From Oceanisphaera pacifica (GTDB lineage Bacteria > Pseudomonadota > Gammaproteobacteria > Enterobacterales > Aeromonadaceae), in NCBI RefSeq assembly GCF_017498065.1, contig NZ_JAGDFX010000015.1, forward strand, positions 1-64,000: a stretch of DNA of 64,000 bases, read 5' to 3'. The position numbers were made by a program, and so were the translations under genes. Positions 8,264-38,880 of the stretch are shown here, piece by piece; position 1 is the stretch's first letter, and each line of letters starts with the position of its first letter. Under the pieces are notes generated by a model, which made no database searches, had not been told where the DNA came from, and saw only the letters and a program-made list of their open reading frames with translations.

Positions 8264-8897
8264 TTTGCTGTTATCGGCAACATGGGAAACCCTGATCATG
8301 ACCTTTGGTTCAGGCATAATAGCCTGCGTGCTCGGTATCCCTTTGGGGATTGCCTTGCATGTGAGTAAGCCTGGACAGATTTGGGAAAACCGCGTTTTTA
8401 ATAAAATATTAGGCTCAGTAATCAATATTGGCCGCTCTATTCCTTTTATTATCTTGTTAGTGGCCATTATTCCCTTTACCCGCTTCGTGGTAGGGACCAG
8501 TATTGGTACCCTTGCCGCCGTAGTACCGCTAACGGTTGCCGCCATTCCCTTTGTGGCTCGACTGATGGAAGGCGCCCTGATGGAGGTGCCCGCAGGCTTA
8601 GTTGAAGCGGCACAGGCCATGGGCGCCAAACGCCTACAAATTGTTTCTAAGGTTTTATTACCCGAAGCCCTACCCGGTATGTTAAACGGCATCATTATTA
8701 CCCTGGTCACCTTGGTGAACTATTCAGCCATGGCCGGAGCCATTGGTGGCGGTGGTTTAGGGGATGTCGGTATTCGTTATGGTTATCAGCGTTTCGATCC
8801 ACAAGTGATGCTGATTACGGTAGTGTTGTTAGTGATATTGGTACAAGTCATTCAAAGTGTTGGCGAGCGTTTAGTCGCTTATGTAGATAATCGTTAA
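8244..8897 (+). CDS. metI: Methionine ABC importer permease MetI
   Basis: This inner-membrane permease of 217 aa is the same length as E. coli MetI. It has about five hydrophobic segments and the transporter loop [21 protein letters not shown]. The start is inside the end of metN, so translation is coupled. It works with MetN and MetQ to import D- and L-methionine. Confidence 0.96.
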
Positions 8898-8915
8898 TTA
8901 AAAAGGAAGTTATTT

Positions 8916-10447: not shown

Positions 10448-11707
10448 TTACTGGTGCTCTATTACCATCACTTTATGATGTTGTAATGGCTGGTAATGAT
10501 CGTAGCGGCTTGTGTCGGTGAGGCTCTGCCACCATTGTGTGGGAGAAACGCCCAGAGGTAGCTCAACCCCTAAGCTGATTTTAGATTCAAACTTATCTTT
10601 GCTATTACTCAGCAACGCGCTTTTCAATGTCAGCACCTGCCAAGGAGAATAATTAAGTGACCATTGGCGGGACAGGGGAGCTTTGTATTTATCGCCACTG
10701 CCATATAAATCAAGTTGACTGCCCTGCCATTGATAATATTCTCCTGAAATACTTAAGCCCGGCACCCACCCCAAACGCCCTTCACCAAATAATAATTGCC
10801 CAGCCGCTGGGCGCTCTTGTCGTCCGGCTTGTTGCTGCCAGTCAGATAATGGCTGGTATTGCCCTGCTCCTAGCGTCCAATCTGGATGCTCTAGAAATAA
10901 CAATAAACCACCTCTTTGGTGATCTTGGCCGGCTTGATAATCCAGAATAGGTTCAACATGGCCGCTAATTCTGTGCGTTAACGGCTGCTCAAAGTGTAGG
11001 CCGGCTTGATAGGTTAACCGATCATCTCGATAATCTACCCCCAACTCACCTTGCCAGTTCCGCCGCACAGGAAGTGCTAGACGACTGCGTAATTGAGGGT
11101 CTTTATCAAATAATGGCAGTTGATAATCCCAGCTCCAAGATTCTGGGCTTAGCCATAACAAAGAGCTTAGCTGACGAGAGCCAAACGACAGCGTGCTGTC
11201 TGCAATATGACTACTTTGCTGCTCCACAAACTTATCTATGTTGTTGAGTGCTGCTGCTTTAGCCGCAGAGGCTAAGGTGAATAATACTTTATCGGCCTTG
11301 GGGGCTGACGTCGGATCGGGGCGACCTAATTGTGGCAAAGCAGAGGCTTGGGGCTGAGACTGAGCCCGACTTGGAGCCGTCTTGGTTGTCGCCTTGGTTA
11401 TAGCCTTTGTTATCACGGGGGGAGTGGCTGGTTGCACTTGAGTCAGTTGCTGAGGGCTAGCTACATCGGCATGGTTTGGCACCCACACCCAGTCACCGGC
11501 GGCTAACGGCACCAAAAAACGCTGAGGGTTAAAATCATGGCGCAGCTCACGCTCACTTAAGCCATAATGCTCGGCCAATAAGCGCCATGTCTCGCCCTCT
11601 TTCACCTGATGCATGGCGACTAAAGGCATAGCCGCCCACGCGCTCGACGCGAGCAAGCCAATACTCAATATTTGTAATAAGAGAAATAAGCCTAAGCTGC
11701 TGGTCAT
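10448..11707 (-). CDS. LysM and inverse-autotransporter beta-barrel outer-membrane protein, no passenger (YchO-like)
   Basis: This protein of 419 aa has a signal peptide ending SSAWA-AM. A LysM-like segment follows (HQVKEGETWRLLAEHYGLSERELRHDFN, about residues 33-75). A Pro/Thr/Ala-rich linker (about 80-140) precedes a C-terminal region of alternating strands that ends ISLGVELPLGVSPTQWWQSL. That layout matches the intimin/invasin inverse autotransporter barrel, except that the protein stops where a passenger would begin. It is therefore closest to passenger-less proteins such as YchO. Family assignment is by recognition of pattern, not alignment. It converges on rfaH. Confidence 0.7.
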   Translation of the reverse strand: MTSSLGLFLLLQILSIGLLASSAWAAMPLVAMHQVKEGETWRLLAEHYGLSERELRHDFNPQRFLVPLAAGDWVWVPNHADVASPQQLTQVQPATPPVITKAITKATTKTAPSRAQSQPQASALPQLGRPDPTSAPKADKVLFTLASAAKAAALNNIDKFVEQQSSHIADSTLSFGSRQLSSLLWLSPESWSWDYQLPLFDKDPQLRSRLALPVRRNWQGELGVDYRDDRLTYQAGLHFEQPLTHRISGHVEPILDYQAGQDHQRGGLLLFLEHPDWTLGAGQYQPLSDWQQQAGRQERPAAGQLLFGEGRLGWVPGLSISGEYYQWQGSQLDLYGSGDKYKAPLSRQWSLNYSPWQVLTLKSALLSNSKDKFESKISLGVELPLGVSPTQWWQSLTDTSRYDHYQPLQHHKVMVIEHQ

Positions 11708-11794
11708 ATTTAAGGTTGTCAGTCCTTATGCAGAGTAAAGAGAAAACATGGGAAGCCATACGCTGTATGCCCTAGGGTCAATGGCAGCTGATAG

Positions 11795-12094
11795 CCTGCC
11801 ACTTCATCACATCTTTTTGTTGATGTTTGGGTAAAAGTCAGCCAGAGCGCACTGCTCCGCTCGACTCGCCGCTGGGCTAGCCACCTTTGCTGGGTAATGG
11901 CTGCAAATATTCACAGGATATTTGGTCCATCACCCAGCAAAGGTACACGGCAGCAAGCTGCCCCATACGGGCTCCGCCGCGCCATCTGACCGCCAAGGAT
12001 GGCGGAAATGCAGAAATGGCAGGAGCATTTTTCTGCCCTGGCGCGGAGGGTCGACGGAGCAGACACCCTCTGCCTTCCCATTAGCACCGAGTTG
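11795..12094 (+). repeat. Dispersed multi-hairpin repeat, family 1, long copy
   Basis: A 300-base element is repeated in inverted orientation at 45730-45980. It folds as a branched structure. The closing stem pairs 11852-11865 with 12050-12062. One arm pairs ACCTTTGCTGGGT (11883-11895) with 11932-11944. A short hairpin is GGCAGC-AA-GCTGCC. The last arm is GCGCC/GGCGC. In this copy the last arm carries about 50 extra bases (11984-12037) that form two more hairpins (CCGCC/GGCGG and GCAGAAA/TTTCTGC). It contains no credible gene. With the next repeat it fills most of the 11708-12320 gap. Confidence 0.85.
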
Positions 12095-12124
12095 ACTATT
12101 ACTGCAAACAGCCGGCACCAAAAC

Positions 12125-12245
12125 ATGAAGAAGAGACGGGAGGCATTGTCGTAGCCAACCGTCAAATGCCAGGGACGGCATTTGACGAGCGCCGCAGGGA
12201 TGCGGATTAAGCGAGTTGGCGCAGGCAAGCCTGCTGGCTCTTCAT
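12125..12245. repeat. Dispersed multi-hairpin repeat, family 3, copy 1
   Basis: ATGAAGA at the left end pairs with TCTTCAT at the right. Inside are hairpins GTCAAATGCC/GGCATTTGAC, CCGCA/TGCGG and GCAGGC/GCCTGC, and an AGCCAAC/GTTGGC stem. The core AAATGCCA-GGACGGCATTT and the following CGAGC recur at 19770-19790 in the same order. It lies just downstream of dgt's 3' end. Confidence 0.7.
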
Positions 12246-12320
12246 ACACTATGGCACTTTACACATTTGTGACTAAGTGACAGGCTGATAGCATACGGCT
12301 TATAGCGGCCTTTCACATAT

Positions 12321-13688
12321 TTATCCCTGAAAACCGCATAATAAACGATATTCTTCTAATATATAGGTGTCAGTCATGCCGCTCACAAAATCGAGTAATA
12401 AGCGCACTCTAAAGTACCACTCTCGCTCTGTAGCGTCTTCAAATAAGGCAGTCTGACGACTATCTCGCTGATAAGCGGCTAAATGACGGGGCGGCAACCT
12501 GTGGTATAAACGGCGCAATACTAAGCTTTCCGCATCTTGGCGGCTGTCTAACCGAGCAAACTCCTGCGCGGGCAAGGCTAACAAGGGGGCAAAGGCTTCC
12601 AATACTCCTTTTAGTGCAGCAAACCCCGACAGCTCTAGGGCCTCAACTTCACGGCGATTAAACACCTGACGGCGCGCAAAATCTTTAAGCCATTGCAGCG
12701 CTTGGGCAGGTGCCTGCTCAACCGCCAGTAAGGGTTCATTATGCTGACCGGCTAAAATAGCCTGATGATGCGCTAAATACTGCTGACTCACCAGCCGCTG
12801 TAAGTCATCATTAAGCTGCTGTCGAAAACGGCTAAAAAAGTCAGGATCCCCTACCTTAGCTTGCTGCCAGCAAGTTTTAAGGTAGTCATTCCCTTCCCCT
12901 AATACCGCAAGCTCCAGCTCTGCAAGACTGAGTACGCCACGATCAATCGCATCTTCTAAGTCAGCAACGCCATAGGCCATATCGTCAGCGGCTTCCATTA
13001 AAAAAGTGAGGGGGTAACGGCCGCGTACCGTGGTAGGAAACAGCGCTCTCATCTGTTGAATAAGGGGACGTTCGCTAAAATAATGGCCAGGTTTTTGTTG
13101 CCAAGGCGCCTGACTTTGTCGTTGGTAGGCGCCACGCACGTATTTTTGTAATGCCGCAAGCTGGCTTAGGGTAAGATTTAACCCCTGCAAGCTATGTAAT
13201 AATCGCAGGCTTTGAGCATTACCTTCAAACTGCTGCAAGTCGGTAATCAACATAGGCCACTGGCGTGAACCTTTACCGACCGCCTGCTTAAATAAACGGG
13301 GCAATCGCGTGCGTAGCCAGTCAATCATGACCGCTTCACCAAAATGACCAAAAGGCGGGTTCCCCACATCATGCAATAGGCAAGACATTTCAACTAGGCT
13401 GACAAAAGCTTGCTGATCGACATCAAAGCCTTGCTCTTCTCTCAACTCAGTTAACACCATTAGCGCTAGCTGACGACCAATTTCTTTTACTTCTAATGAG
13501 TGCGTTAACCGGCTGCGTACCGAGGCTTTAACATCAAGTGGAAATACCTGCGTTTTTTGTTGTAAGCGCCGCACCGGTGAGCACTGTACAATACGATTAC
13601 GATCCACTTCTATGGCACTTAGTTCCGTCTCAATCTTGTTCGGCGTACTTAGACGATCACTGACAATAAAGTGCTGATAATCACTCAT
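12321..13688 (-). CDS. dgt: dGTP triphosphohydrolase (dGTPase)
   Basis: This HD-domain enzyme hydrolyses dGTP to deoxyguanosine and triphosphate. At 455 aa it is somewhat shorter than E. coli Dgt (505). The substrate/HD residues are visible: RSRLTHSLEV (first His), SCLLHDVGNPPFGHFGE (HD pair) and AADDMAYGVADLEDAID (last Asp). The ATG at 13688 overlaps the arcB stop as ATGA, so it is preferred over a TTG at 13706. In E. coli dgt lies beside mtnN; here arcB separates them. Confidence 0.92.
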   Translation of the reverse strand: MSDYQHFIVSDRLSTPNKIETELSAIEVDRNRIVQCSPVRRLQQKTQVFPLDVKASVRSRLTHSLEVKEIGRQLALMVLTELREEQGFDVDQQAFVSLVEMSCLLHDVGNPPFGHFGEAVMIDWLRTRLPRLFKQAVGKGSRQWPMLITDLQQFEGNAQSLRLLHSLQGLNLTLSQLAALQKYVRGAYQRQSQAPWQQKPGHYFSERPLIQQMRALFPTTVRGRYPLTFLMEAADDMAYGVADLEDAIDRGVLSLAELELAVLGEGNDYLKTCWQQAKVGDPDFFSRFRQQLNDDLQRLVSQQYLAHHQAILAGQHNEPLLAVEQAPAQALQWLKDFARRQVFNRREVEALELSGFAALKGVLEAFAPLLALPAQEFARLDSRQDAESLVLRRLYHRLPPRHLAAYQRDSRQTALFEDATEREWYFRVRLLLDFVSGMTDTYILEEYRLLCGFQG

Positions 13689-16081
13689 ACTCTGCTCTCT
13701 AACCAACGCCGTAGCACGGCTAAGTCATGAGGTAGATACTCATTAAGTGTCACCACCCAGCCCTCTAACTGCAGCCACCAGTCGGCAATATCAGGGCTTT
13801 GAATCTGTTGCGCTAGCTGTTGCGCTCGCTTTAAGCCGACCGATCCTGCAGCACCTTTAATTTTATGCGCTTCTTCAACAATGCGGCTTTGTTCTTTATC
13901 GGCCACAAAGCCGTTTAATCGCGTCAAATAATCGCCGGCCATGTTATCGAGCATATCAACACTTGAGAGCAAAATAGCTGCGCCTACGGTATCTACATAG
14001 TCAGTTAAAAAGACCGTATCTAATATTATCTCTTCATCTGTTTGCACGGTTGCAGGAGCCTCTGTCTCAGCAGTGCGCTTAGTCTTGAGTGCAAGGTTAG
14101 TCTCTGGGTCAACCGTGAGGGTGCGACGGGCTTGTTTAAGCGGCCTGTGTGTAAAAAAGCGAGCCAATACGCCTTTTATCGCTTTAGAAGACAAGGGCTT
14201 ACTAATCGCATCGTCCATACCTTTAGCTAGGTATGCTTGCTTATCGCTGATCAGATTTGCGGTCAGAGCGACCAAAGGCGGCAGTTGTTTCGCTTTTTCT
14301 TTGGCTTCTTGGCGCAAATGGGCAGCGATATCAAAGCCGGTCATATCTGGTAACTGAATATCAAGAAAGACGAGATCAAAGTCCACCTGAGCCAATAGCG
14401 CCAAGGCTTCTTTGCCATCACGTGCAACCGCCACCTTATGACCTAGCTTCTCTAATAAGGCACAGGCCACAGTGACATTTAACTCTACATCTTCTACTAG
14501 CAAGATAGATAAAGTCGGTAAATGAGCAACGACAGGATCTTCCACTGGCGCTGTAGCACGCAGTGCATTAATAGTGACACTGAAGCACGCGCCTTCATTG
14601 GGTTCACTGTCTAATTCAATGGTGCCGTGCATTGCGTCTACTAATTGCTTTGATACCGCAAGTCCAATGCCGGTTCCGGTGGCGTATTTATTACCCTCCA
14701 CCTGAAAGTAGAGTGAGAAAATGTCTTTTTGTAGATGCTGAGGAATACCAATGCCGGTATCTTCAATATCAAACCTGAGTGTGACTTCCCCTGGGGATAG
14801 CTCATCGGCCATGCAACGAATGGTGACGCCACCAGCGTCGGTAAATTTCACCGCATTGCCCACTAGGTTCCAAAGTACTTGGCGCAAACGGGTGCCATCA
14901 GCCAAGATCCAGTCGGGAATATCACCGTCGCGATCAAAATGTAGATAGAGGCCTTTTTGTTCAGCTTGTAATCGGGTTAAAGTTTCTAAGTCATCTAAAA
15001 ATCCCGGAAAGTCCATGGGTTCTGGGGCCAGTTCTAACCGGCTGCGATCTAACTTATCAAGGTCGATAATATCGTTAAAAATATTGCCTAAGGTCACGGC
15101 ACTAAAATGAATGGTTTTTATATGCTGCTGCTGATCTTTATCAAGCCGAGTCGCTAATAAAATACGACTTAAGCCCACAATACCATTTAAGGGAGTGCGC
15201 AACTCATGGCTAATGGTTGAGATAAAAGTGGTTTTATCGCGACTGGCTTTTTCTAACTCTTCTTGGTAGCGCTTACGCTCTGTAATATCTCGGCCAAAAC
15301 CGAGCAAGCCTAAACGCTGGCCGCTGCGATCAAAAAATGGCACTTTACGCAGTTCAAAGCAGGCATCGCGCCCATCAGGATATTGCAACCATTGCTCATA
15401 AGTCTGGCTTTCGTTACGACCAAACACCTCTTTATCGGTTTCTACTACTTTTTCTGCCACATCAGCAGAATAAACATCAAAAGGCGTTAAACCAATTAAC
15501 TCACTCTCTTGTTTCCCCAGTAGCTTTTCCATGGCGCGATTACAGCCAGAAAACTCTTCTCGCTCGTTACGGTAATACACTAAGTCAGGCGAGGTATCGA
15601 TAAAGGATCGCAATAGTGCCATGCGCTCTTGTGACTCCATTTGCGCTTTTTCGCGCTGGTATACTTCCGCCTCTAAATCTTCAATTGCCTGCTGGCGTGC
15701 GGTTTCCGCTTTGTGCGTTTCTTCTATTTGGCAATTCAGCTGTTCTATTTTTTCTTGTAGCTCGTTATTAAGATCCAGATCGCGCTCGCGCATTTGTTGT
15801 AATCGCTGCACTAAGCGACTTAAACGTTGCCGTGAGTCTTCTAGCTGATCCACCACTACCGATAAAAAATACACCGCCCAAGGGGTGACTAATAAGCCAA
15901 AAAAAACTGAACGCACCATATCAACGAGTTCAAAGGTGCCGCGCAAAAATAGCGTCACGCCCACCTGAATAAAAATAGCCAGTAGGATAATGCAGGCCGC
16001 AAGTAACATACTAAAACGTACTATGCCCAACTTAGTCATTAAGTCGACATAATACTGGGCCCAAGTTTTGATGGGTTTCAT
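13685..16081 (-). CDS. arcB: Aerobic respiration control sensor kinase ArcB (tripartite hybrid kinase)
   Basis: This inner-membrane quinone-sensing kinase of the ArcAB system has 798 aa (E. coli 778). Two membrane segments lie at about 22-45 and 57-78. They are followed by a coiled coil (80-155), PAS (155-270), HisKA with His292 in STISHELRTPLNG, HATPase (N-box NLVGNAVKF, GTGIGL), receiver with Asp574 (VFLDIQLPDM) and HPt with His739 (AHKIKGAAGS). Cys180 and Cys241, the redox cysteines of E. coli ArcB, are conserved at the same positions. It is translationally coupled to dgt downstream, an unusual partner. Confidence 0.95.
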   Translation of the reverse strand: MKPIKTWAQYYVDLMTKLGIVRFSMLLAACIILLAIFIQVGVTLFLRGTFELVDMVRSVFFGLLVTPWAVYFLSVVVDQLEDSRQRLSRLVQRLQQMRERDLDLNNELQEKIEQLNCQIEETHKAETARQQAIEDLEAEVYQREKAQMESQERMALLRSFIDTSPDLVYYRNEREEFSGCNRAMEKLLGKQESELIGLTPFDVYSADVAEKVVETDKEVFGRNESQTYEQWLQYPDGRDACFELRKVPFFDRSGQRLGLLGFGRDITERKRYQEELEKASRDKTTFISTISHELRTPLNGIVGLSRILLATRLDKDQQQHIKTIHFSAVTLGNIFNDIIDLDKLDRSRLELAPEPMDFPGFLDDLETLTRLQAEQKGLYLHFDRDGDIPDWILADGTRLRQVLWNLVGNAVKFTDAGGVTIRCMADELSPGEVTLRFDIEDTGIGIPQHLQKDIFSLYFQVEGNKYATGTGIGLAVSKQLVDAMHGTIELDSEPNEGACFSVTINALRATAPVEDPVVAHLPTLSILLVEDVELNVTVACALLEKLGHKVAVARDGKEALALLAQVDFDLVFLDIQLPDMTGFDIAAHLRQEAKEKAKQLPPLVALTANLISDKQAYLAKGMDDAISKPLSSKAIKGVLARFFTHRPLKQARRTLTVDPETNLALKTKRTAETEAPATVQTDEEIILDTVFLTDYVDTVGAAILLSSVDMLDNMAGDYLTRLNGFVADKEQSRIVEEAHKIKGAAGSVGLKRAQQLAQQIQSPDIADWWLQLEGWVVTLNEYLPHDLAVLRRWLESRV

Positions 16082-28960: not shown

Positions 28961-31405
28961 TCAGTGCTTTATATGCCTCTTGGTGTGTCGAGTTGGGGCT
29001 GTTTGTGCCGGATCGTCAGGCCAGTGGTGTTTAGGGTAGCGCCCACGCATTTCTTTTTTTACGTCTTGATAAGATCCCGCCCAAAACGCGGCTAAATCTC
29101 GTGTAATTTGTAATGGTCGTCGTGCCGGTGATAATAGCTCTAACACCAATGGCACCCGCCCATAGGCTAATTCGGGCCCGCAAGCTTGGCCTAACATTTC
29201 TTGTAACCGCACCGGTAAAATAGGGTCTTCATTAGCCCGATAGCGAATGCGAGCACGGCTGCCCGTTGCCAAGGTCACAGCGCTGGGTAGCAGGGTATCC
29301 AGCAATTGTTGTTGTGACCAGTCTAGTCGACTTTTAAAAATATCACGCCAGTTTAACCGCGCCAGCTCATCCCAACGCCCAAGCCCCGTCAAATAAGGCA
29401 GTAGCCAGTGTTCGGCTTGCGTCAACCAAGTGTTTTCATCACACTCAGCAAAGCCGTTATCGGCCAGTTTTTGTCCGGCCAGTTGTAATCTCAGCCAATA
29501 TTGCTGCGCGGTTTCGTCTAGGGGTAGCGCCGACCAGCCACGTCGCTGTACTTCGGTGAGTAAGCACTGGGCTTTTTGCTCTGGGCTTATTTTTTGTAAT
29601 GGCTTGCGCTGTAAAATCAATTGACCAAAGCACCATTGTTGCTCGGCACGCACCCGATTTGCGTCTGCATCCCAATGTAATTGGTCACGGTGCGCAAAGC
29701 GCTGGGGCAAGGTTTGTTGTAGCTGCGACAAGGTGACCGGCTCTGCGGCTTGAATAAATACCCCAAGATCATTGCGCCCTAATGCCGCTATCGCCAGCAT
29801 GGTTTTCCCTTGCAAGGGGCTATCTTGAGGTAGGTCGGCACTTAAGCCCCCCGCTAAGCCATAGCGAGCTTGCCGGCCTGACTGAGGGCGCAATAAACCT
29901 ACCCAATCGGGTTTGGCATTCGCTAATAAAACGCCAATATACTGCCCACTAGGCGAAGATTCTGCGGCCTGTAAGCGGCTAAACCAGCGCCGTGCCGACG
30001 CCTTTAATGCCCCTTGCCGCGCCAATATTTGCCCTGATAAAGGCCCAGCCCCCCAGCGCCCTTCTTCTAATAAGGCCACTAAATAGACGCCATCAGCCAA
30101 GGCGCCTTGATGCCCTTGTTGCTGCCAAGCCTGAGCACTCAGTAACAACTGCCCCAGCCAAGGCTCACACCCAAGCTGCCATACGCGCTGGCCTAGGGTA
30201 GTGATTTTTCCCTCCGCTAATAACCCAAGTGCGGCCAATTGATGATGCGCCGCTGCCAGTAATGGTGCCGGCGGCGGGGTTAATAACGACAACTGCTCAG
30301 GCGGTGCGCCCCATGCGGCGCACTCAAGTACAAAACTGCTCAAGTCACTTTGCTCAATTTCAGCAGGGCGTTTAGGGGCTAGCCGTGCTTGCTGCTCTTG
30401 GCTCCACAGGCGCACGCAATGGCCCAGCTGTAAGCGCCCAGCACGCCCGGCACGTTGCGTGGCAGACGCTTGGCCTATTTGTCGGCTATATAGGCGGGTC
30501 ATGCCTGATTGCGGTTCAAACTCAGCCCGTCGCTCTAACCCTGAGTCCACCACTATGCTTATGCCATCTATGGTAAGGGAGGTTTCTGCCACATTGGTGG
30601 CCAGTACCACCTTACGCCGCCCGTTTGCAGCAGGTGCAATGGCGGCTTGTTGTTCCGCTAAAGACAATCGACCATATAAAGGTCGCAACTCGACATTAGA
30701 ATCAGTTTTATCTGATAGCCAAGTGAGTAGCGACTTTATCTCTCGCTCACCGGGCAAAAAGGCCAAGGCGCTGCCACTGTGTGTGGTTAATGCCATTAAG
30801 ATGGCGCGCCCCATGGCTTCATCTAATCGAGTGTGCTGATTGCGCGGCTGATAACTCAGCTCTACCGCAAAGCTGCGCCCTGCACTGCTAATACTGACTG
30901 CCTCGGGTAATAGCTCAGTGAGTGCCAGCCCTTCTAAGGTGGCCGACATTATCATTAGGGTTAAGTCTTCACGCAGTGCTTGGCACTCTAAGGCAAATGC
31001 CAGTGCTAAATCTGCTTGTAAGCTGCGCTCATGAAACTCATCGAAGATCAGCAAGCTCACCCCGCTTAGCTCAGGATCCGCCTGCAACATACGAGTGAGC
31101 ACGCCCTCGGTGACGATTTCTAGACGCGTGTGTTGACCCACTTTTTGCTCACCGCGCATACGATAGCCTACCTGTCCACCCGGTGACTCACCCAATTGCG
31201 AAGCCAAATATTGAGCAATACTACGGGCTGCCAATCGTCTGGGCTCTAGCATAATAATACGCCCAGCTATGCCCTGCTGCTTTAATAACCACAGCGGTAG
31301 CCAGGTTGATTTACCCGCCCCAGGCGGGGCTTCAATAATAATTTGAGACGCCGAGAGTGCCGCTTGCAATTGCGGCAGTACTTCAACAATGGGCAGCTGG
31401 TTCAC
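28961..31405 (-). CDS. hrpB: ATP-dependent helicase HrpB
   Basis: This DEAH/RHA helicase of 814 aa (E. coli 809) has an unknown physiological substrate. Walker A is APPGAGKSTW, the DEFH box is LLIFDEFHERSLQADLA, motif III is MSATLEG, and motif VI is RAGRAGR. HrpB-specific C-terminal domains follow. Homology to E. coli begins at VNQLPIVEVLPQL, so I use GTG 31405, which has AGG upstream; a TTG at 31429 is less likely. The neighbouring mrcB keeps E. coli synteny. Confidence 0.93.
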   Translation of the reverse strand: MNQLPIVEVLPQLQAALSASQIIIEAPPGAGKSTWLPLWLLKQQGIAGRIIMLEPRRLAARSIAQYLASQLGESPGGQVGYRMRGEQKVGQHTRLEIVTEGVLTRMLQADPELSGVSLLIFDEFHERSLQADLALAFALECQALREDLTLMIMSATLEGLALTELLPEAVSISSAGRSFAVELSYQPRNQHTRLDEAMGRAILMALTTHSGSALAFLPGEREIKSLLTWLSDKTDSNVELRPLYGRLSLAEQQAAIAPAANGRRKVVLATNVAETSLTIDGISIVVDSGLERRAEFEPQSGMTRLYSRQIGQASATQRAGRAGRLQLGHCVRLWSQEQQARLAPKRPAEIEQSDLSSFVLECAAWGAPPEQLSLLTPPPAPLLAAAHHQLAALGLLAEGKITTLGQRVWQLGCEPWLGQLLLSAQAWQQQGHQGALADGVYLVALLEEGRWGAGPLSGQILARQGALKASARRWFSRLQAAESSPSGQYIGVLLANAKPDWVGLLRPQSGRQARYGLAGGLSADLPQDSPLQGKTMLAIAALGRNDLGVFIQAAEPVTLSQLQQTLPQRFAHRDQLHWDADANRVRAEQQWCFGQLILQRKPLQKISPEQKAQCLLTEVQRRGWSALPLDETAQQYWLRLQLAGQKLADNGFAECDENTWLTQAEHWLLPYLTGLGRWDELARLNWRDIFKSRLDWSQQQLLDTLLPSAVTLATGSRARIRYRANEDPILPVRLQEMLGQACGPELAYGRVPLVLELLSPARRPLQITRDLAAFWAGSYQDVKKEMRGRYPKHHWPDDPAQTAPTRHTKRHIKH

Positions 31406-31470
31406 ACGATTACCTAAGGGGGAAAACAACCAATATATTATGCCAAAAAGACTGACTCAGGGCTATATGA

Positions 31471-31485
31471 CGCGATTTAATCGCG
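31471..31485. repeat. Perfect 15-base palindrome in the hrpB upstream region
   Basis: CGCGATTTAATCGCG is a perfect inverted repeat around a single central T. It is GC-rich at its ends within an AT-rich stretch. It could be an operator or a small hairpin. The 31406-31637 gap otherwise holds only AT-rich sequence with no gene. Confidence 0.5.
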
Positions 31486-31637
31486 ATCTTTCAGAAGAAG
31501 GGTAAAAAATAGTAATTTTACTGAAGTAAGATTGTTATTTAAAGTAATAGCAATACAATTATTAAAAATAATGCTGTCAATTTTATCTAAGAACAGCAAA
31601 TAGCTAATATTTATTCTTAGAGAGCAAGGTGACAGGG

Positions 31638-31925
31638 ATGTTTCAGAAAAGACTCAGCAGCATTTATCCGTTTATCATATTTATTTTAATATTTGCTGCG
31701 GGCTATTGTTATACTCATTTGAGCATCATTGCTAAACGAAATAAGCAAAAGCTATTACTAACAACAGTGATTAATGCACAAGTAGCCGTCATAGACGACA
31801 CTTAATCCATTATTTATTTAGACTTAGATAATTTTAAATGGGTGAATGATACCGCAGGTCATGAGCGCGGCGGGCGTTTATTAATAAAGATTGCACAACG
31901 CCGATCTTGCCATGTATCACTCTAA
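31638..31925 (+). pseudogene. Remnant of a membrane-bound diguanylate cyclase (GGDEF)
   Basis: An ATG at 31638 opens 55 codons encoding a basic start, a membrane helix (about 9-28) and a short tail, then a TAA at 31803. The same frame continues with LDLDNFKWVNDTAGHERGGR (31818-31877). That is the conserved metal- and GTP-binding segment that precedes the GGDEF signature. The frame stops at 31923 before the signature itself. Sensor region and catalytic loop are missing, so no active cyclase can be made. A 55-aa membrane peptide could still be translated. Confidence 0.75.
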
Positions 31926-32104
31926 ATGATCAGGAAAAAATCAGTTTTCGTTCTTGTCATCCAGTATGAGACGGTAAATGATCACCAACTAAACGCGCTG
32001 AGGTTTTGCTCATAGCTCTCGGCTCACTGCTGACACCTTCCAACTGGGCCTTTGCACAGACAAGCGCTGCTGCCTTACCTGCGTCAATTTTTGATAACAA
32101 AAAT

Positions 32105-32141
32105 AAATACCGCCCTGTATTAAGAACACTGGGCGGTATTT
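32105..32141 (+). terminator. Hairpin upstream of the luxE-like gene, possible terminator
   Basis: AAATACCGCCC (32105-32115) pairs with GGGCGGTATTT (32131-32141) across a 15-base loop. Only a short T run follows. It could be the old terminator of the degraded gene upstream, and the TATACT at 32143-32148 next to it could serve as a -10 box for the operon that follows. The 31926-32196 stretch has no other convincing content. Confidence 0.5.
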
Positions 32142-32196
32142 GTTATACTCTTTTGTAGCTTAAAGCAGTGCTTACCATTAGAAATAGGTATATTAG

Positions 32197-33294
32197 ATGG
32201 ATATTGACAAGATGGATCAAGAAATAATGGCGCAAACCTTGCGCTTCATACAACAAGAAACCAGCTCAGATGCTGATTTTAACGAACAAGCCCTAGCCCT
32301 CTTTAAATATCAATTTACTTATAATCGCCCCTACCAAGTCTATTGTCGCACCAAAGGTAAAACCCCCAGAATAGTTAAGCACTGGCAAGATATCCCTGCG
32401 GTACCTATTAATGCCTTCAAAGAAGTGACACTAAGTTGTACCGATGCCGAACGGGCAAGTGCTACTTTTATGACCAGTGGTACCACAAGCGGCAACAAAG
32501 GCAAGCATTATCATCCACAGTTAACGGTTTATAATTTATCTACCTTAACTCACTTTAAAGCCGCTGTTATGGGAGCAACCCCTTCAATTCCGATGGGATT
32601 GCTATTTCCTACACCACAGGCGCTGCCTAACTCCTCTTTGGCTCACTATTTAGCCTTGGTTTCTAAAGAGTTTGGTCAGCAAGATACCCGTTATTTTATT
32701 AATGAATCGGGCTTGTTAGTGGATGAGCTAATTGCAGAGCTAGAAGTGCGAGTTGCGGCTAATCAACCCTATGCACTGCTGGGTGCCTCCTTTAGTTTTG
32801 TGCATCTATTTGAGGCTTTAGCTGCCAGAAACCAACGTTTTGTCTTACCTAAAGGCAGTAAATTACTTGATACTGGTGGCTATAAGAATCAATCCTCTGC
32901 CCTTGATACGGACACTTTCTATCAACAAATGACGTACTACCTTGGGGTTGAGCCTAGCCACTGTATTAATATGTTTGGTATGACTGAGCTAAGTAGTCAG
33001 CTTTATACTCAAGGCAGTCAGACCTTGCCTGCGACCATTACAGGCCCACACTGGATAAGAACTCGTGTCGTTAATCCAACAACCGGTGAAGAGGTTTCCG
33101 AGGGCGAGCCTGGTGTATTAGTGCAAATAGACTTGGCAAACTACAATTCCGTTGCTGCTATTTTGACCGAAGATATAGGCATTAAAAAAGACAACGGCTT
33201 TCTTTTTTTAGGCCGAGTGCAAGGCGCTGAAGCTAAAGGCTGCTCTTTAGCACTAAATGAATTTATGCACTCATTGACGAGTGCTAACCCATGA
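32197..33294 (+). CDS. LuxE-family acyl-protein synthetase
   Basis: This adenylate-forming enzyme of 365 aa belongs to the LuxE/acyl-protein synthetase family. In luminous bacteria LuxE activates a fatty acid with ATP and hands it to LuxC. The ATP/AMP loop FMTSGTTSGNKGKHYHP (about residues 91-107), LDTGGYK (about 226-232), NMFGMTELSSQLY and the C-terminal Cys349 in KGCSLALNEF are visible. The family acyl-acceptor cysteine is also near the C-terminus, so Cys349 is the likely one. AGG lies 8 bases before the ATG. The stop overlaps the luxC-like start as ATGA. It is the first gene of a six-gene operon; no luciferase gene is present, so the acid is probably not for light. Confidence 0.85.
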   Translation: MDIDKMDQEIMAQTLRFIQQETSSDADFNEQALALFKYQFTYNRPYQVYCRTKGKTPRIVKHWQDIPAVPINAFKEVTLSCTDAERASATFMTSGTTSGNKGKHYHPQLTVYNLSTLTHFKAAVMGATPSIPMGLLFPTPQALPNSSLAHYLALVSKEFGQQDTRYFINESGLLVDELIAELEVRVAANQPYALLGASFSFVHLFEALAARNQRFVLPKGSKLLDTGGYKNQSSALDTDTFYQQMTYYLGVEPSHCINMFGMTELSSQLYTQGSQTLPATITGPHWIRTRVVNPTTGEEVSEGEPGVLVQIDLANYNSVAAILTEDIGIKKDNGFLFLGRVQGAEAKGCSLALNEFMHSLTSANP

Positions 33295-34742
33295 TAGAGA
33301 AAGCCGGATTTATTCCCCAACTCGCCGAAGATAATATCACTTATGACAGCCTAAATTTTACCCAAAACGGGGTTGAACTAAGTGTACAAGTGCCGGTATT
33401 AACGGCCACACAGCTCACTCAGGTGATAGAAAAAGTCACCACAGCTAGAAATAGCCTCTTGCAAAACTTCACTGTGATTGAGTTGGTGGATATTATTGAT
33501 AATGCCGTGCATCAACTGCTAGACAGCAATAACCGGTATCGAAAAAAGGCCGAGCAACTACTACCCATCATTACAGGCTTTGATGCACAGATGATCCGCC
33601 TAGGGCTCACCGCTTCACTTAAAACCTTTCGCAAACCTCAGTTGCTCAAGTTTTTAGTGGAAGACTTTAATAATCCGCTCTTGTTAGATGGCTTTCAACC
33701 TCGGGCAAAAGGCGGTTATGTTAAAGCCGTTGGGCCACAGTTAATGACTCATATTTGGGCGGGAAATGTGCCTGGCCTTCCCTTATGGAGCCTGCTCTCT
33801 GGATTATTAGTAAAAGGCGGCACCATTGGTAAGGTATCTAGTTCGGAGCCATTATTTGCCGGTTGGGTTGCTCAACTTATCACTGAAATAGAACCAAAAC
33901 TCAAAGACTGTCTTGCTATTTTATGGTGGCGAGGCGGAGACGAAGTAAAAGAAAAACAACTTTTCAACGCCTCAGATATTGTACTGGCCTATGGCGGCAA
34001 CACCGCCTTATCAGCCATGCAATCTCGCGTGCCCGTTACTAGCCGCTTTTTAGCTTACGGCCATAAAATTGCCTTTGGCCTAATAGCGAATACCAGCTTA
34101 AATGCAAACAATGCCAAACAAACGGCTCATAATGCTGCATTTGATGTGATCAACTATGATCAACAAGCCTGCTTTTCTCCCCATTGCTTCTTTATAGAAA
34201 AAGGGGGCCAAGTGGATGCAAAAGACTTTAGTGAGCTATTAGCGGGTGAGTTAGCCAACTACCAAAAAAAGTATCCCCGACAGACATTATCTTTTGCCGA
34301 GCAAACGCAACTTGTCGCCTGGCAGCAACAAGAGCAGATGAGCACTTATCAACAAACAGATAAGCAGGTTATTAGCCCAGAATCTGGAGACTGGTCGGTA
34401 GTTTATGAAACGGCCGCTACCGCTTTTGTGCCTAGCCCACTTAATCGTACTGTTCGGGTAATAGAAGTCGCAGACTTAACTTGCATCCCCGCTTTAATCG
34501 CCCCCTACCGTGCCTATTTACAAACCGTAGGCATAGCTGCGGCACCAACTGAACTTTTTAAGCTGTCAGCCATGGTCGCTGAACTCGGCGTTACTCGCAT
34601 TACCGCTATTGGTAACATGACAGCTCCAGAGGCGGGATGGCATCACGATGGTAGTGCTAACTTATTAGATTTAGTACGCATGGTAGACTTAGAGTTAAGT
34701 GCAGAGCAAGCAGCAGAACATTACTCTTCGTACCGACATTAA
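33291..34742 (+). CDS. LuxC-family acyl-CoA/acyl-protein reductase
   Basis: This 483-aa protein is an aldehyde-dehydrogenase-fold reductase of the LuxC family, which reduces an acyl thioester to an aldehyde with NADPH. HIWAGNVPGLPLWSLLSGLL (about 154-173), KGGTIGKVSS, LAYGGNTAL and the probable catalytic Cys294 in DQQACFSPHCFF are visible. It is coupled to the LuxE-type gene, matching the luxE/luxC functional pair. I infer that the pair converts a carboxylic acid to an aldehyde; the chain length or ring type cannot be told from sequence. The ATPase gene follows after 12 bases. Confidence 0.87.
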   Translation: MIEKAGFIPQLAEDNITYDSLNFTQNGVELSVQVPVLTATQLTQVIEKVTTARNSLLQNFTVIELVDIIDNAVHQLLDSNNRYRKKAEQLLPIITGFDAQMIRLGLTASLKTFRKPQLLKFLVEDFNNPLLLDGFQPRAKGGYVKAVGPQLMTHIWAGNVPGLPLWSLLSGLLVKGGTIGKVSSSEPLFAGWVAQLITEIEPKLKDCLAILWWRGGDEVKEKQLFNASDIVLAYGGNTALSAMQSRVPVTSRFLAYGHKIAFGLIANTSLNANNAKQTAHNAAFDVINYDQQACFSPHCFFIEKGGQVDAKDFSELLAGELANYQKKYPRQTLSFAEQTQLVAWQQQEQMSTYQQTDKQVISPESGDWSVVYETAATAFVPSPLNRTVRVIEVADLTCIPALIAPYRAYLQTVGIAAAPTELFKLSAMVAELGVTRITAIGNMTAPEAGWHHDGSANLLDLVRMVDLELSAEQAAEHYSSYRH

Positions 34743-34754
34743 GAGTATTATAAA

Positions 34755-35504
34755 ATGAACACTTTACTAATCAAAAATGTTAGCCATCACTACCAGAACA
34801 ATAAACCTATTTTAAGTAATATTGACTTAAAAATAAATAATGGGGAATTTTACTCTTTAATTGGACGTAGCGGCTGCGGTAAAACATCGTTATTAAATAT
34901 AGCATCAGGGCTACTTATCCCTCAAGAGGGACAAGTGATGATTAATAACGCTCCTCTATGTGGCCCCATAGCAGAGGCAGGCTTTGTTTTTCAATCTCCC
35001 ACTTTGCTAGAGTGGAAAACCGTATTACAAAATACTTTATTCCCAATAGAAATAAAAAGAAAAAGCACTCAGCAAGAAAAAGAAAGAGCAAACTACCTAC
35101 TCTCTCTAATGAAAATATCCGAGTTGGCTCATCAGTATCCTCTGCAACTATCTGGCGGGCAGAAAAGTCGAGTAGCCATTGCTCGCGCCTTAATTAAAAG
35201 CCCACCTTTCTTATTTATGGATGAGCCTTTTGCTGCACTAGATGCAATTACTCGTGAAGAGCTACAGCAAGATCTTATTAGTTTATGCGCCACACATAAC
35301 ACAACGGTTATCTTCATTACCCATGATATTGCTGAGGCAATTTATTTATCTGATAATGTAGCTGTAATAGGTCAAGGAAAAATTATTTATAACACTCATA
35401 TTCCTTTAGCCAAACCTCGCCTATCTCAGGTGCGATATAGCAAGGAATTCAACCAGTTAAGCCATAAATTACGCCAAGCACTAGAGGGGGGAGATTCTTT
35501 ATGA
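34755..35504 (+). CDS. ABC importer ATP-binding protein, NitT/TauT type
   Basis: This 249-aa ATPase of the nitrate/sulfonate/thiamine-precursor importer family has Walker A GRSGCGKTS, Q-loop FQSPTLLEWKTVLQN, signature [15 protein letters not shown], Walker B FLFMDEPFAALD and the H-loop in FITHDIAEA. Its codons are strongly AT-rich compared with flanking core genes. The stop overlaps the permease start as ATGA. Together with the two following genes it forms a complete importer. Confidence 0.9.
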   Translation: MNTLLIKNVSHHYQNNKPILSNIDLKINNGEFYSLIGRSGCGKTSLLNIASGLLIPQEGQVMINNAPLCGPIAEAGFVFQSPTLLEWKTVLQNTLFPIEIKRKSTQQEKERANYLLSLMKISELAHQYPLQLSGGQKSRVAIARALIKSPPFLFMDEPFAALDAITREELQQDLISLCATHNTTVIFITHDIAEAIYLSDNVAVIGQGKIIYNTHIPLAKPRLSQVRYSKEFNQLSHKLRQALEGGDSL

Positions 35505-36256
35505 AAAAGATTCACTTTGTCTCTTTAGGGCTATTCATTGTTTTACTGGGGTTATGGGAGTGGGCAAGCTACTATATGTCGCAATTGGTACTGCCTGCGC
35601 CATCAGTTGTTTTCCCGTTATTATGGTCTGACTTAACCTCTGGTTACTTTAATGCACATGTTTTTCAAACTACCACTGAGGTGCTAGGCGGTTTACTCAT
35701 TGGCAGTCTCTTTGGCATAACCATGGGAGTGCTAATGGGGGAAGTAAAGTGGCTAGGTCAAATGCTCTCGCCTTATGTTATTGCCAGCCAAGCCATACCT
35801 AAGCTCGCCCTAGCTCCACTTTTTGTTTTATGGTTTGGCTTTGGCACTAGCTCTAAAGTTGTCATTACCGCTTTAATATGCTTTTTCCCTTTATTAGAAA
35901 GTACTATGACGGCTATTAGGCATACGAACAAAGACAAACAAAATTTATTTAAAGTATTACAAGCTTCACGCTGGCAGACACTTATACACCTTAAAATACC
36001 TGAAGGCTTACCCGTTATTATGAGTGGTTTTAGAGTAGCTGTAGTATTAGCGTTAGTTGGTGCTGTTGTAGGTGAGTTTATTGGTGCCAACCAAGGGCTT
36101 GGCGCATTAATCATTGCCTCACAAGGTATGATGGATACCCCATTAATGTTTGCAGTACTCATACTGCTCACAGTATTGGGCATGTTGTTATATGGACTGG
36201 TTAATTTAATAGAAGTAACACTATTAAAGAAATACTTTTATCAAGGAGAAAGATAG
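35501..36256 (+). CDS. ABC importer permease, NitT/TauT type
   Basis: This 251-aa inner-membrane protein has about six hydrophobic segments and a PAPSVVFPLLW start as in SsuC/TauC-type permeases. The coupling loop is KVLQASRWQTLIHLKIPEGLP. It overlaps the ATPase gene by 4 bases, and the binding-protein gene begins 2 bases after its stop. AT-rich like its neighbours. Confidence 0.9.
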   Translation: MKKIHFVSLGLFIVLLGLWEWASYYMSQLVLPAPSVVFPLLWSDLTSGYFNAHVFQTTTEVLGGLLIGSLFGITMGVLMGEVKWLGQMLSPYVIASQAIPKLALAPLFVLWFGFGTSSKVVITALICFFPLLESTMTAIRHTNKDKQNLFKVLQASRWQTLIHLKIPEGLPVIMSGFRVAVVLALVGAVVGEFIGANQGLGALIIASQGMMDTPLMFAVLILLTVLGMLLYGLVNLIEVTLLKKYFYQGER

Positions 36257-36258
36257 AA

Positions 36259-37269
36259 ATGAAGAAAAAAACAATGACCTCTGTGCTCATAGCTGTCAGT
36301 GTGATGCTCTCAGCTTGCAATGATACAAACCAACACAAGAAAAATACTCAACAAGCCGACCCTGTTACTGTGAGAGTTGCAAGTTGGAGCCAGCCAATAA
36401 CTGAACAAACAAACTTATTAGTGAAAGATAAAGACTTCTTTAAGAAAAATAATATTGATGTGGAATTTATTCCTGGTGCAGGGGGCGGCGATGCCATAAA
36501 AAACATTGCCTCAGGCAAGGCAGATATTGCATTTACCGATCCTGGATCTTTCTTTTCAGCACTTGATAAAGGCGAAAAACTGCTAGCTTTGTATAATATT
36601 TATCCACAAAACGTATTTAATGTGGTCTCGTTAGCAGACAGCGATATTACACAACCCCAAGATTTAAAAGGAAAGAAAGTTGGTGTTTACAGCCTCTCTA
36701 GCGGCACCCGACAAAACTTATTGATGTTACTACATCAGGTAGGCCTCACTGAAGATGATGTGGAGATTATTGAAACAGGTGTACTCAACTTTTCTCCCCT
36801 AATGCAAGGCCAAGTGGATGCCACCGCCGCCACAGATACGGGCTTAGCCACCGGGAAAGCCAAAGGACTCGGTGATGTGAATGTGATTGAAGTTAAAGAG
36901 ATCTTTAACTATTCAAGTGATTTATTTGTTGTCACCGAACAAGCCTATCAGCAAAAAAAGTCGATACTCGATGATTTTTTAGCAAGCTATAAAGACAGTG
37001 TGCAATGGATGATGGCTGAGCCTGAGGCTGCAGCAGAGCTTGCGGTAAGCTATGCCATTGATGGCAAAAATACCGCACACAACCTCCGTATTATTAACTT
37101 ACGCAACGCATCAAGTATGCCTATTTCTCAAGATAAAACAGAACTTGGGCTCTTAGATCCACAAAACTTACAAGATGTTGCTAATCACTATTACCAACTT
37201 GGACTCATTTCACAACAGCTAGATATAAGCAGCGCCATTAGTTCACAATATCGTTTGCCCACAGAATAA
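36259..37269 (+). CDS. NMT1/THI5-like substrate-binding lipoprotein of the importer
   Basis: This 336-aa lipoprotein has a signal ending LSAC (Cys20), so it should be tethered to a membrane. The mature domain VRVASWSQPITEQTNLLVKD and the IASGKADIAFTDPGSFFSAL segment fit the NMT1/THI5 group. That group binds thiamine precursors, sulfonates, aromatic acids or similar small molecules. No residue pattern lets me choose among these. It defines what the operon imports, so it is the best handle on pathway function. Confidence 0.88.
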   Translation: MKKKTMTSVLIAVSVMLSACNDTNQHKKNTQQADPVTVRVASWSQPITEQTNLLVKDKDFFKKNNIDVEFIPGAGGGDAIKNIASGKADIAFTDPGSFFSALDKGEKLLALYNIYPQNVFNVVSLADSDITQPQDLKGKKVGVYSLSSGTRQNLLMLLHQVGLTEDDVEIIETGVLNFSPLMQGQVDATAATDTGLATGKAKGLGDVNVIEVKEIFNYSSDLFVVTEQAYQQKKSILDDFLASYKDSVQWMMAEPEAAAELAVSYAIDGKNTAHNLRIINLRNASSMPISQDKTELGLLDPQNLQDVANHYYQLGLISQQLDISSAISSQYRLPTE

Positions 37270-37279
37270 GGAGTGGCTT

Positions 37280-38047
37280 GTGAAAATTGCAGGAAAAGTC
37301 GTCTTAGTCACTGGATCCAGTAAAGGCATTGGCGCTGCCATTGCGCAAGAGTTTGCTCGTGAGGGAGCCTTTGTCATTATTAACTATTTACAAGACTCCT
37401 CATCTGCAGAGAAGGTGGTTGCTGCCTGCCAAGCGGCAGGAGGAGATGCATGGGCGATCGCTGCTGATGTCACCTGTGAAGAGCAAGTACAGCGCATGAT
37501 CCAAGATATTGACTTAGAGTTAGGTCGACTGGATATAGTGGTTAATAATGCCTTTAGATCTTATCAATTTGATCCTGAGCGGCGAAAACTTGCCTGGCAA
37601 CTCAGCTGGGAAGATTATCACACACAACTAGAGGGCTCATTACGCTCTGTTTATCATATTAGCCAAGCCGTACTGCCGATAATGAAAAAACAAGGCTGTG
37701 GCTGCATGGTCAATATTATAACTAACTTAATTGCACGCCCTATTGTACCCTATTTAGATTACACCACTGCTAAAGGCGCCGTGCTTAGTTACAGTAAAAA
37801 CTTAGCCGCTGAATTAGGCCCCTTAGGTATTAGAGTCAACTGCGTAGCCCCTGGATTGGTGTACCCAACCACCGCTAGCCAAAACACCAAAGAGGCTATA
37901 AAGGAGCATATTATTGCTCAAACGCCTTTAGGCAGATTAGCGCAGCCAGATGATATTGCAGGGCCTGTACTGTTTTTGGCGTCTGATTTGGCGCGTTTTG
38001 TAACCGGACAAACCCTGTATGTTGACGGTGGTTTTGTGATGAGTTAA
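37280..38047 (+). CDS. Short-chain dehydrogenase/reductase with altered catalytic motifs
   Basis: This 255-aa classical SDR has a Rossmann motif TGSSKGIGAAIA (residues 11-22), the active-site YTTAK and the C-terminal GQTLYVDGGF. It resembles FabG. Two departures are clear: the NNAG motif reads NNAF, and the catalytic Ser, 13 residues before Tyr, is Thr (IITNLIARP). Thr may still function. It starts at GTG 37280 with AAGGAG upstream, 10 bases after the binding-protein gene, and is the last gene of the operon. It may reduce the aldehyde made by the LuxC-type enzyme, but that is inference. Confidence 0.85.
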   Translation: MKIAGKVVLVTGSSKGIGAAIAQEFAREGAFVIINYLQDSSSAEKVVAACQAAGGDAWAIAADVTCEEQVQRMIQDIDLELGRLDIVVNNAFRSYQFDPERRKLAWQLSWEDYHTQLEGSLRSVYHISQAVLPIMKKQGCGCMVNIITNLIARPIVPYLDYTTAKGAVLSYSKNLAAELGPLGIRVNCVAPGLVYPTTASQNTKEAIKEHIIAQTPLGRLAQPDDIAGPVLFLASDLARFVTGQTLYVDGGFVMS

Positions 38048-38118
38048 AGGCCAGTTATGTGGTGAGTTACCCGATTGTGTCATGAGTTAATAGTTAGGTT
38101 GCATTACCAAGGCGGTCT

Positions 38119-38880
38119 TCACACTATAAATGGCAGCGGCTCCACTAATTGCATGCCGGTGGGGCTAATATCCGCCCGCCAGGCGATACATTCCACCCCC
38201 ATCGCCATGGCCTCAGACACTAAACTCCCATATACGGGGTCTAGATGATGGGCTGGGCTGACTTGCTTAATGCCGGTGTGCAAGACGCAAAACAGCAAGA
38301 CGGCGCGCTGTCCGTCTTGTACACAGGCCATTAGCTCTCGCACATGCTTTTGTGCTCGCACGCTTTGAGTATCAGGGAAAAAGCCCTGTCCTTGAGAGAG
38401 CCAAGACGTGGCGCCAGGTAATACGTCATTATCTAATAAGGTGACGCTTTTCACTTCTACATAACAGTCGGGCTCACCGGTTTGACGCAATAAAAAGTCA
38501 ATGCGGCTACGTTCACTGCCATAAGCCTGTTCGGCTTTTATCTCGCCATAGTGTGCTAGCGTAGCAATAGTACGCTGCTGCAATGCTTCACCCACCAATT
38601 GATTAGCACGAACGGTATTAACACAAATAAAGTCACCTTGCGGATTTTCTACTAACTCCCAAGTATGAGCATATTTACGCTTAGTATTATGAGAGGTTGA
38701 ATAATATATAGCCCAACCCGGTTCGGCACAGCCGGTCATTTTACCGGTATTAGGACAGTGAATCGTTAGCACCTCCTCTGCTATGGCGTTGTTCTGCAAT
38801 ATATTCGGCTTTATATCTGCTAAAAAACGTTTATAACGCTGTATTAATCTGCCTTGCTGTAACGGTGAAGAAAACTGCAC
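38119..38880 (-). CDS. sfsA: Sugar fermentation stimulation protein SfsA
   Basis: This 253-aa protein has an OB-like N-terminal part and a nuclease-like fold, and has been linked to nucleic-acid binding in E. coli; its biochemical role is unsettled. TIHCPNTGKMTGCAEPGW, STSHNTKRKYAHTWE, GSERSRIDFLL and CYVEVKSVTL match the family closely. The start is GTG 38880, with AGGAG five bases upstream, matching the E. coli start; an in-frame upstream start at 38931 has no such support. An insertion of about 10-15 residues follows VKSVTLLDND. It faces the preceding SDR gene and is divergent from dksA. Confidence 0.93.
   Translation of the reverse strand: MQFSSPLQQGRLIQRYKRFLADIKPNILQNNAIAEEVLTIHCPNTGKMTGCAEPGWAIYYSTSHNTKRKYAHTWELVENPQGDFICVNTVRANQLVGEALQQRTIATLAHYGEIKAEQAYGSERSRIDFLLRQTGEPDCYVEVKSVTLLDNDVLPGATSWLSQGQGFFPDTQSVRAQKHVRELMACVQDGQRAVLLFCVLHTGIKQVSPAHHLDPVYGSLVSEAMAMGVECIAWRADISPTGMQLVEPLPFIV

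Follow-up and report, generated by a model that had tools for sequence, protein, structure and literature searches.

Organization of the operon

In the 64,000-nucleotide stretch of Oceanisphaera pacifica DNA analysed here (contig NZ_JAGDFX010000015.1, positions 1 to 64,000; hereafter the window), six open reading frames (ORFs) on the + strand at 32197-38047 form one compact operon. It begins with a LuxE-family acyl-protein synthetase of 365 aa (32197..33294; PF04443, 96.7 bits against a cut-off of 24.9) and a LuxC-family acyl-protein thioester reductase of 483 aa (33291..34742; PF05893, 320.5 bits against 21). The ATPase (34755..35504; PF00005 ABC_tran, 107.9 bits) and permease (35501..36256; PF00528 BPD_transp_1, 107.7 bits) of an ATP-binding cassette (ABC) importer follow, then an NMT1/THI5-type substrate-binding lipoprotein (36259..37269; NMT1 PF09084, 159.8 bits against 20.5) and a short-chain dehydrogenase/reductase (SDR) with a GTG start (37280..38047; PF13561 adh_short_C2, 204.5 bits). 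These Pfam matches bear out all six protein families named in an initial annotation of this DNA, and the inter-ORF spacings of -4, 12, -4, 2 and 10 bases agree with the tight packing it described (two ATGA overlaps and gaps of 2 to 12 bases). Its statement that luxA and luxB are absent holds for the six ORFs, none of which is a luciferase by Pfam in a scan confined to these genes.

The N-terminus of the binding protein reads as a lipobox-like LSAC, and the importer, made up of an NMT1-domain binding protein, one ATPase and one permease, is of the NMT1/THI5 (ThiXYZ-like) type. For the ATPase the best NCBIfam models shown, those of SaoA, taurine and sulfonate ATPases, all remain below cut-off, and the SDR is PRK08642-like but stays short of that model's threshold (269.7 bits against 292, NF006393).

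Both acid reductase components are family members by Pfam gathering score together with the expected cysteine, in a C-terminal GCS motif in LuxE and at the catalytic position in LuxC. In luminescence systems these motif cysteines act as acyl acceptors. The window LuxE aligns with the LuxE of PDB entry 7xc6, including KGCSL, and the Cys294 motif of its LuxC aligns with YDQQACFS of 7xc6_A. We aligned relatives from the loci described below, skipping six incomplete or unreadable ORFs and leaving out L026 as a duplicate. The LuxE residues TSGTT 93-97 and Cys349 are invariant in 79/79 aligned rows, LuxC Cys294 (in YDQQACFSP) in 81/81 and SDR Tyr161 and Lys165 in 78/78. Neither protein approaches the equivalog models of luminescence, LuxE reaching 73.1 of 550 bits for the long-chain-fatty-acid ligase (NF052244) and LuxC 125.8 of 750 for the long-chain-fatty-acyl reductase (NF052251).

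Conservation and distribution of the gene order

A LuxC scan of named genomes returned 260 relatives, of which the best 80 loci were kept; together with L026-L028 and the window they make 84 mapped loci. The initial annotation had proposed asking whether the gene order is kept in other genomes, and the full order LuxE-LuxC-ATPase-permease-binding protein-SDR recurs in 66 of the 84, a recurrence that speaks against chance. This count includes O. arctica twice, since L026 and L029 are the same locus with shared operon DNA. Another 12 loci hold LuxE-LuxC-SDR without the importer, and six (L038, L040, L071, L088, L089 and L095) are cut by contig or stretch ends. The hosts belong to the Bacillota and to the Alpha-, Beta- and Gammaproteobacteria, and include Sporosarcina, Domibacillus, Bacillus, Desulfosporosinus, Azospirillum, Polaromonas, Achromobacter and Pantoea.

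A strong LuxE match occurs in 2 of 23 genomes of the window's genus, and at E <= 1e-30 LuxE is found in 3/394 genomes of the order sample and 2/369 of the class sample, both including the window's own genome. In a sample of Bacilli, the class of Sporosarcina ureae (itself included), LuxC reaches E <= 1e-30 in 10/398 genomes.

In five further records (L109, L110, L114, L136 and L137) an NCS2 nucleobase-type transporter replaces the ABC importer; these are two Lactobacillus plasmids, one Niallia plasmid and two further Bacilli genomes. The Niallia transporter (L114) scores as a relative of nucleobase/xanthine permeases and is adjoined by ThiW. Because 12 of the 84 loci lack the importer, we read the core from gene content as LuxE-LuxC-SDR, to which the importer is an addition. 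The importer-joined gene set noted at the outset is kept in the 66 complete loci, but the importer is not obligatory: 12 loci are without it, and the five further records carry NCS2 instead.

Some loci show additional features. The 10-kb Lactiplantibacillus plantarum plasmid (L109) and the Levilactobacillus brevis plasmid (L110) carry the whole module of thiamin pyrophosphate (TPP) aptamer, NCS2, LuxE, LuxC and SDR, plus integrase and toxin-antitoxin genes. On a Pseudomonas silvicola plasmid (L145) the LuxE and LuxC relatives were each matched in two unannotated pieces, possibly a decaying copy. In two importer-less alphaproteobacterial loci (L056, 2066-3262 on the - strand; L062, 6500-7630 on the - strand) a divergent luciferase-like monooxygenase relative adjoins the operon; it is 24-25% identical to a monooxygenase of the window's genome (L121) described below.

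A TPP riboswitch precedes the operon in most loci

A first pattern look at the upstream regions revealed THI-box-like sequence. Three Rfam runs gave 5/8, 7/10 and 6/9 positive loci and, with L027 given twice, RF00059 (TPP) reached its gathering score upstream of 18 of 26 distinct loci; two pairs of these aptamers are identical (L109/L110 and L104/L113). Searched singly, the aptamer of L060 scored 58.1 bits. A covariance model was then built from 11 Rfam-confirmed aptamers and run on 90 sources at E <= 0.1; seven of the 83 loci with luxE had also trained the model, after Rfam had found them. In 78 of these 83 loci the model places a TPP aptamer at the unit. In 74 the aptamer lies within 300 nt upstream of luxE on the luxE strand, in three a gene stands between them (thiW in L037, thiD in L101 and L108), and in L098 the aptamer overlaps the extrapolated luxE start by 14 nt. 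Aptamers are present at all five NCS2 loci, and in the Bacilli sample one precedes the unit in 10/10 loci (7 directly, 3 in longer stretches).

Over 84 aligned matches, five of which precede other genes and whose alignment was fitted to the model, 95.7% of cells pair and covariation is 0.407 against 0.170 in shuffles, with 0/500 shuffles as high. A terminator lies directly 3' of the aptamer in L045; the scan found none in L033.

The operon family is hence part of a TPP-riboswitch regulon, to which the window's own copy does not belong. Membership in 78 of 83 loci argues against sulfonates or unrelated aromatic compounds as substrates; among the guesses of the initial annotation these two are disfavoured, and a thiamine-precursor-like compound fits. 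Discovery of the riboswitches led us to discard luminescence, as well as generic fatty or sulfonate compounds as substrates.

In L138 (9456-10426) two back-to-back TPP aptamers serve LuxE-LuxC-SDR and a divergent PF09819 membrane protein, presumably YkoE-like and a possible precursor transporter. In L102 (5533-7826) the gene directly 5' of the LuxE operon is thiC; gene and operon each have their own TPP aptamer.

Thiamin biosynthesis genes within and beside the operon

In some relatives the unit also contains thiamin biosynthesis genes. Locus L135, from the Bacilli sample, reads on one strand aptamer-tenI/thiE-like-thiO-like-thiS-thiG-thiF-luxE-luxC-ATPase-permease-binding protein-SDR, where the tenI/thiE-like gene is of the TMP-TENI family and the thiO-like gene of the DAO family, and its largest internal gap is 75 bases, before luxE. 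The Ramlibacter locus (L108) reads aptamer-thiD-luxE-luxC-importer-SDR-thiO-like (the thiO-like match at 208 of 251 bits), followed by thiG and thiE as found with tblastn. The SDR is followed by thiD-thiE in L100 and by thiM-thiD-thiE in L033. In L054 a second aptamer lies downstream, before genes of the TMP-TENI, DAO, ThiG and ThiF families, in a genome without ThiC.

Thiamin is joined from a pyrimidine and a thiazole half, and the gene content of the hosts bears on which half the operon would supply. Of 53 operon genomes, 27 have ThiM (PF02110) at E < 1e-70. The other 26, the window's included, lack it at this threshold; 11 of them are metagenome-assembled genomes (MAGs), and they include every Azospirillum (6) and every Polaromonas (5) searched as well as Metabacillus fastidiosus, whose operon continues into thiD-thiE.

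We also considered loss of ThiC with retention of ThiG as an argument for the pyrimidine branch. Of 40 operon genomes 4 show the pattern, all within the 20 Bacilli of the set. In a control of 200 Bacilli, 8 of which hold the operon, both genes are present in 102, ThiC only in 8, ThiG only in 38 and neither in 52. At 4/40 against 38/200 the pattern is no commoner in operon genomes (Fisher p 0.25), and since it is ordinary among Bacilli the argument was dropped.

Origin and regulation of the Oceanisphaera copy

No Rfam family matches the window between 30500 and 39500 at E <= 1. Run with filters off, the TPP model (R1) gives at most 5.4 bits on the + strand upstream of luxE, and its best match in the window, 9.3 bits, lies on the - strand inside the SDR gene. 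The gap upstream of the operon (31430..32196) is AT-rich (GC content 0.364), apparently decayed and without a TPP riboswitch. Just 5' of luxE, a strong terminator-like hairpin on the + strand (32103..32143) has a 100-nt fold z-score of -4.39, with 0/200 shuffles as stable. Promoter-like matches are not enriched in 31400-38200, with 16 against 15.3 in shuffles. On the side away from luxE the gap borders an HrpB-type helicase gene (28961-31429); within the gap a GGDEF-like fragment was recognised by eye at about 31810-31920.

In a LuxE tree of 102 rows, made by a quick method with SH-aLRT (Shimodaira-Hasegawa-like approximate likelihood ratio test) support, the window's protein pairs with that of O. 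arctica (99), and the Oceanisphaera pair stands beside two Sporosarcina (100) inside Bacillota rows. GC content is lower in the operon (0.426) than in the remainder of the window (0.483). The window and O. arctica copies have different surroundings, and their upstream regions have nothing in common beyond 10-base matches. A Gram-positive, Sporosarcina-like bacterium is the probable donor of the window's copy, given that copy's place beside Sporosarcina in the tree and its lack of a riboswitch. Control of the operon would here have been lost or changed.

Elsewhere in the window's genome there are five TPP riboswitches, one of which is followed by ThiC, a ThiD-ThiE fusion, ThiF and ThiG; with these genes present, the operon would spare synthesis rather than replace it. 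Locus L121 of this genome carries at 11533-13770 on the + strand a TPP riboswitch followed by a PRK08642 SDR (435 bits against the 292 cut-off; 41% identity with the SDR of the operon) and an NtaA/DmoA-type FMN (flavin mononucleotide) monooxygenase, a second TPP-controlled unit, perhaps for another oxidised-precursor route. On the - strand of the same record (7608-9284) a TPP riboswitch precedes the gene of a sodium:solute symporter (SSS family, with a score under the family cut-off), a candidate carrier of thiamin or a precursor.

A proposed route from an oxidised pyrimidine to HMP

Taken together, we consider it likely that the operon serves thiamin precursor salvage, in which an oxidised pyrimidine would be converted by LuxE-LuxC and the SDR to 4-amino-5-hydroxymethyl-2-methylpyrimidine (HMP). 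The link of the operon family to thiamin is strong and the pyrimidine branch is well supported; the exact substrate, the chemistry and the direction we infer, with 4-amino-2-methylpyrimidine-5-carboxylate ('HMP acid') as the most likely substrate. HMP acid is a breakdown product of thiamin. The NMT1/THI5-type ABC importer would bring in the oxidised pyrimidine. LuxE would use ATP to adenylate its carboxylate, giving an acyl-AMP and then a thioester on Cys349, and the acyl group would pass to Cys294 of LuxC, where reduction with NADPH would release the aldehyde. The SDR would reduce this to HMP, which ThiD would phosphorylate and ThiE join to the thiazole. The gene set and its order, the riboswitch in front of the family, the thi genes in some units, the catalytic residues and the NCS2 swap are the sequence features on which this proposal is built. 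The outline of import, activation, aldehyde and alcohol drawn in the initial annotation is in keeping with the genes conserved across loci and with their invariant catalytic residues, save that import by this importer is dispensable.

The binding protein also points to a thiamin pyrimidine. A profile built from 25 orthologs finds THI5 (1e-8) and ThiY 3ix1 (2e-8), whose PDB names connect both with thiamin pyrimidines. The protein is conserved at >=98.5% in 94 positions over 67 rows, which argues for one specific ligand.

Several observations weigh against this assignment. Among solved structures the binding-protein profile matches 3qsl (4e-16) and 4nmy (2e-15) better than THI5 or ThiY, so that the comparison with NMT1/THI5 members suggested earlier establishes kinship with the thiamin proteins but not closest kinship. 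Eight of the 26 loci fall below the Rfam cut-off (L026, L027, L033, L071, L079, L089, L108 and L111; L033 with 48.8 against 54.3 bits). The covariance model finds no aptamer in five of 83, namely the window, L026 and L029 of O. arctica, and the proteobacterial MAG loci L057 and L069, and gives weak or partial matches in L071 (30 nt, 24.7 bits), L092 (28.1 bits) and L027 (31.3 bits, partial). The thiazole-side genes thiW or thiM adjoin the operon in L037, L114 and L033. The ThiM family cut-off is passed by 29 of 53 genomes, the window's and one Polaromonas passing through weak matches; since O. arctica shows such matches alongside a real ThiM, we interpret those of the window's genome (31.9 bits in a 559-aa ORF and 26.6 bits in the ThiD-ThiE ORF) as paralogs. 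Loss of ThiC with ThiG kept lends the pyrimidine branch no support, and ThiC is present in 35 of 40 operon genomes, also in the window's. HMP acid is presumed to be available to operon bacteria, and no biochemical test of the pathway was found in the papers searched.

The alternatives differ in what they make of the thiamin link. An acid reductase for other compounds, such as short fatty or aromatic acids, might spare TPP or merely be switched on when TPP is low; LuxE and LuxC are known for fatty acids and the importer family is broad, but the thi biosynthesis genes in the units of L033, L100, L108 and L135 and the single conserved binding protein make this unlikely, if the least unlikely of the alternatives. 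Next comes the thiazole side, on which 4-methylthiazole-5-acetate would be imported, reduced to hydroxyethylthiazole (THZ) and phosphorylated by ThiM. The three loci with adjoining ThiW or ThiM and the 27 ThiM-bearing genomes suit such a route. THZ would, however, be a dead end in the 26 genomes without ThiM at E < 1e-70 (two of which pass the family cut-off weakly), and operons that already hold a thiazole set (thiS-thiG-thiF in L135, thiG in L108) would gain nothing from it: what they need is the pyrimidine. NCS2 transporters and THI5/ThiY-related binding proteins also suit a pyrimidine better, and we regard the thiazole route as improbable.

Intact thiamin acetic acid, from which the operon would regenerate thiamin itself, we hold to be slightly less probable again. 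It is a rat thiamin metabolite according to the title of a reference cited in PMC7575681, and TPP control would fit; against this, the thiD, thiE and thiG genes of the same units would be bypassed, and a cationic bicyclic compound is an unlikely cargo for NCS2. Supply of fatty aldehyde for luminescence, as the family names suggest, has Pfam membership in its favour and is by far the least credible: both enzymes score far below the equivalog cut-offs, the six genes include no luciferase, the relatives are under TPP control, and the operon LuxE separates from the 12 rows of the outgroup, which include one taken from a luxCDABE-type plasmid insert, with SH-aLRT 97 on long outgroup branches.

Relation to known systems and significance

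The proposed HMP-acid route most resembles the salvage of base-degraded thiamin by ThiXYZ with YlmB and TenA, where an NMT1/THI5-type importer under TPP-riboswitch control likewise leads a modified pyrimidine towards HMP (PMC5627462). The operon binding protein is related by sequence to ThiY 3ix1 and might, like that of ThiXYZ proper, bind a pyrimidine of the HMP/FAMP (N-formyl-4-amino-5-aminomethyl-2-methylpyrimidine) type. The ThiXYZ route is hydrolytic, whereas here an ATP- and NADPH-dependent acid reductase pair and an SDR would take the place of the amidohydrolase and TenA. With the LuxC-LuxE fatty acid reductase of luminescence (7xc6) the operon shares both families and the aligned catalytic cysteine motifs; it differs in lying below the equivalog cut-offs, in having no luciferase in the unit and in the thi genes and TPP riboswitch of its relatives.

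The transporter swap recalls CytX and PLUTO of the NCS1 family, nucleobase-type transporters linked to thiamin genes that move the HMP half (PMC5874261). The carrier swapped in here is instead an NCS2, xanthine-permease-like protein paired with acid reductase genes. A ThiXYZ-like importer under a vitamin riboswitch is also known in the Chloroflexi riboflavin importer RibXY (PMC3766115), which is under FMN rather than TPP control and for which the accessible text mentions no reductases. LuxC and LuxE are further mentioned for Aeromonas flagellin-glycosylation islands in PMC7874193, and the LuxE relatives in the window's family may be the LuxE of such islands. These relatives show 25-30% identity, and no TPP aptamer was found in the four short loci searched (L004, L006, L007 and L016).

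Among the matches listed for open-licence papers, a scope that leaves RegPrecise and most subscription papers outside, we found no description of a LuxE-LuxC route for vitamin B1 salvage. It does not appear in the accessible portions of PMC3766115, PMC2258182, PMC5627462 and PMC5874261, and the words LuxE and LuxC are absent from the main text of PMC3766115, the additional files being outside this scope. Both halves of the scheme have precedents, importers of thiamin precursors controlled by TPP riboswitches on one side and LuxC-LuxE acid reductases on the other; it is for their union that these papers offered none. On balance we lean towards a new B1 route that reclaims HMP acid by a LuxE-LuxC thioester relay and an SDR, encoded by a portable cassette that would move between Bacillota and Proteobacteria, partly on plasmids; as part of this joint reading, and with the same slight preference, its importers would be interchangeable (ABC, NCS2 or none).

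The proposed pathway yields a clear, testable prediction. If true, it would give a function to a LuxE-LuxC subfamily whose members currently carry the names 'long-chain fatty acid--CoA ligase' and 'acyl-CoA reductase' together with a bioluminescence term. Surface oceans are poor in thiamin, and several algae and the bacterium SAR11 live on pyrimidine precursors of the vitamin (PMC5635689). With a pathway for restoring over-oxidised pyrimidine, this B1 economy would gain a precursor so far unrecognised, and HMP acid would be a real environmental currency of the vitamin.

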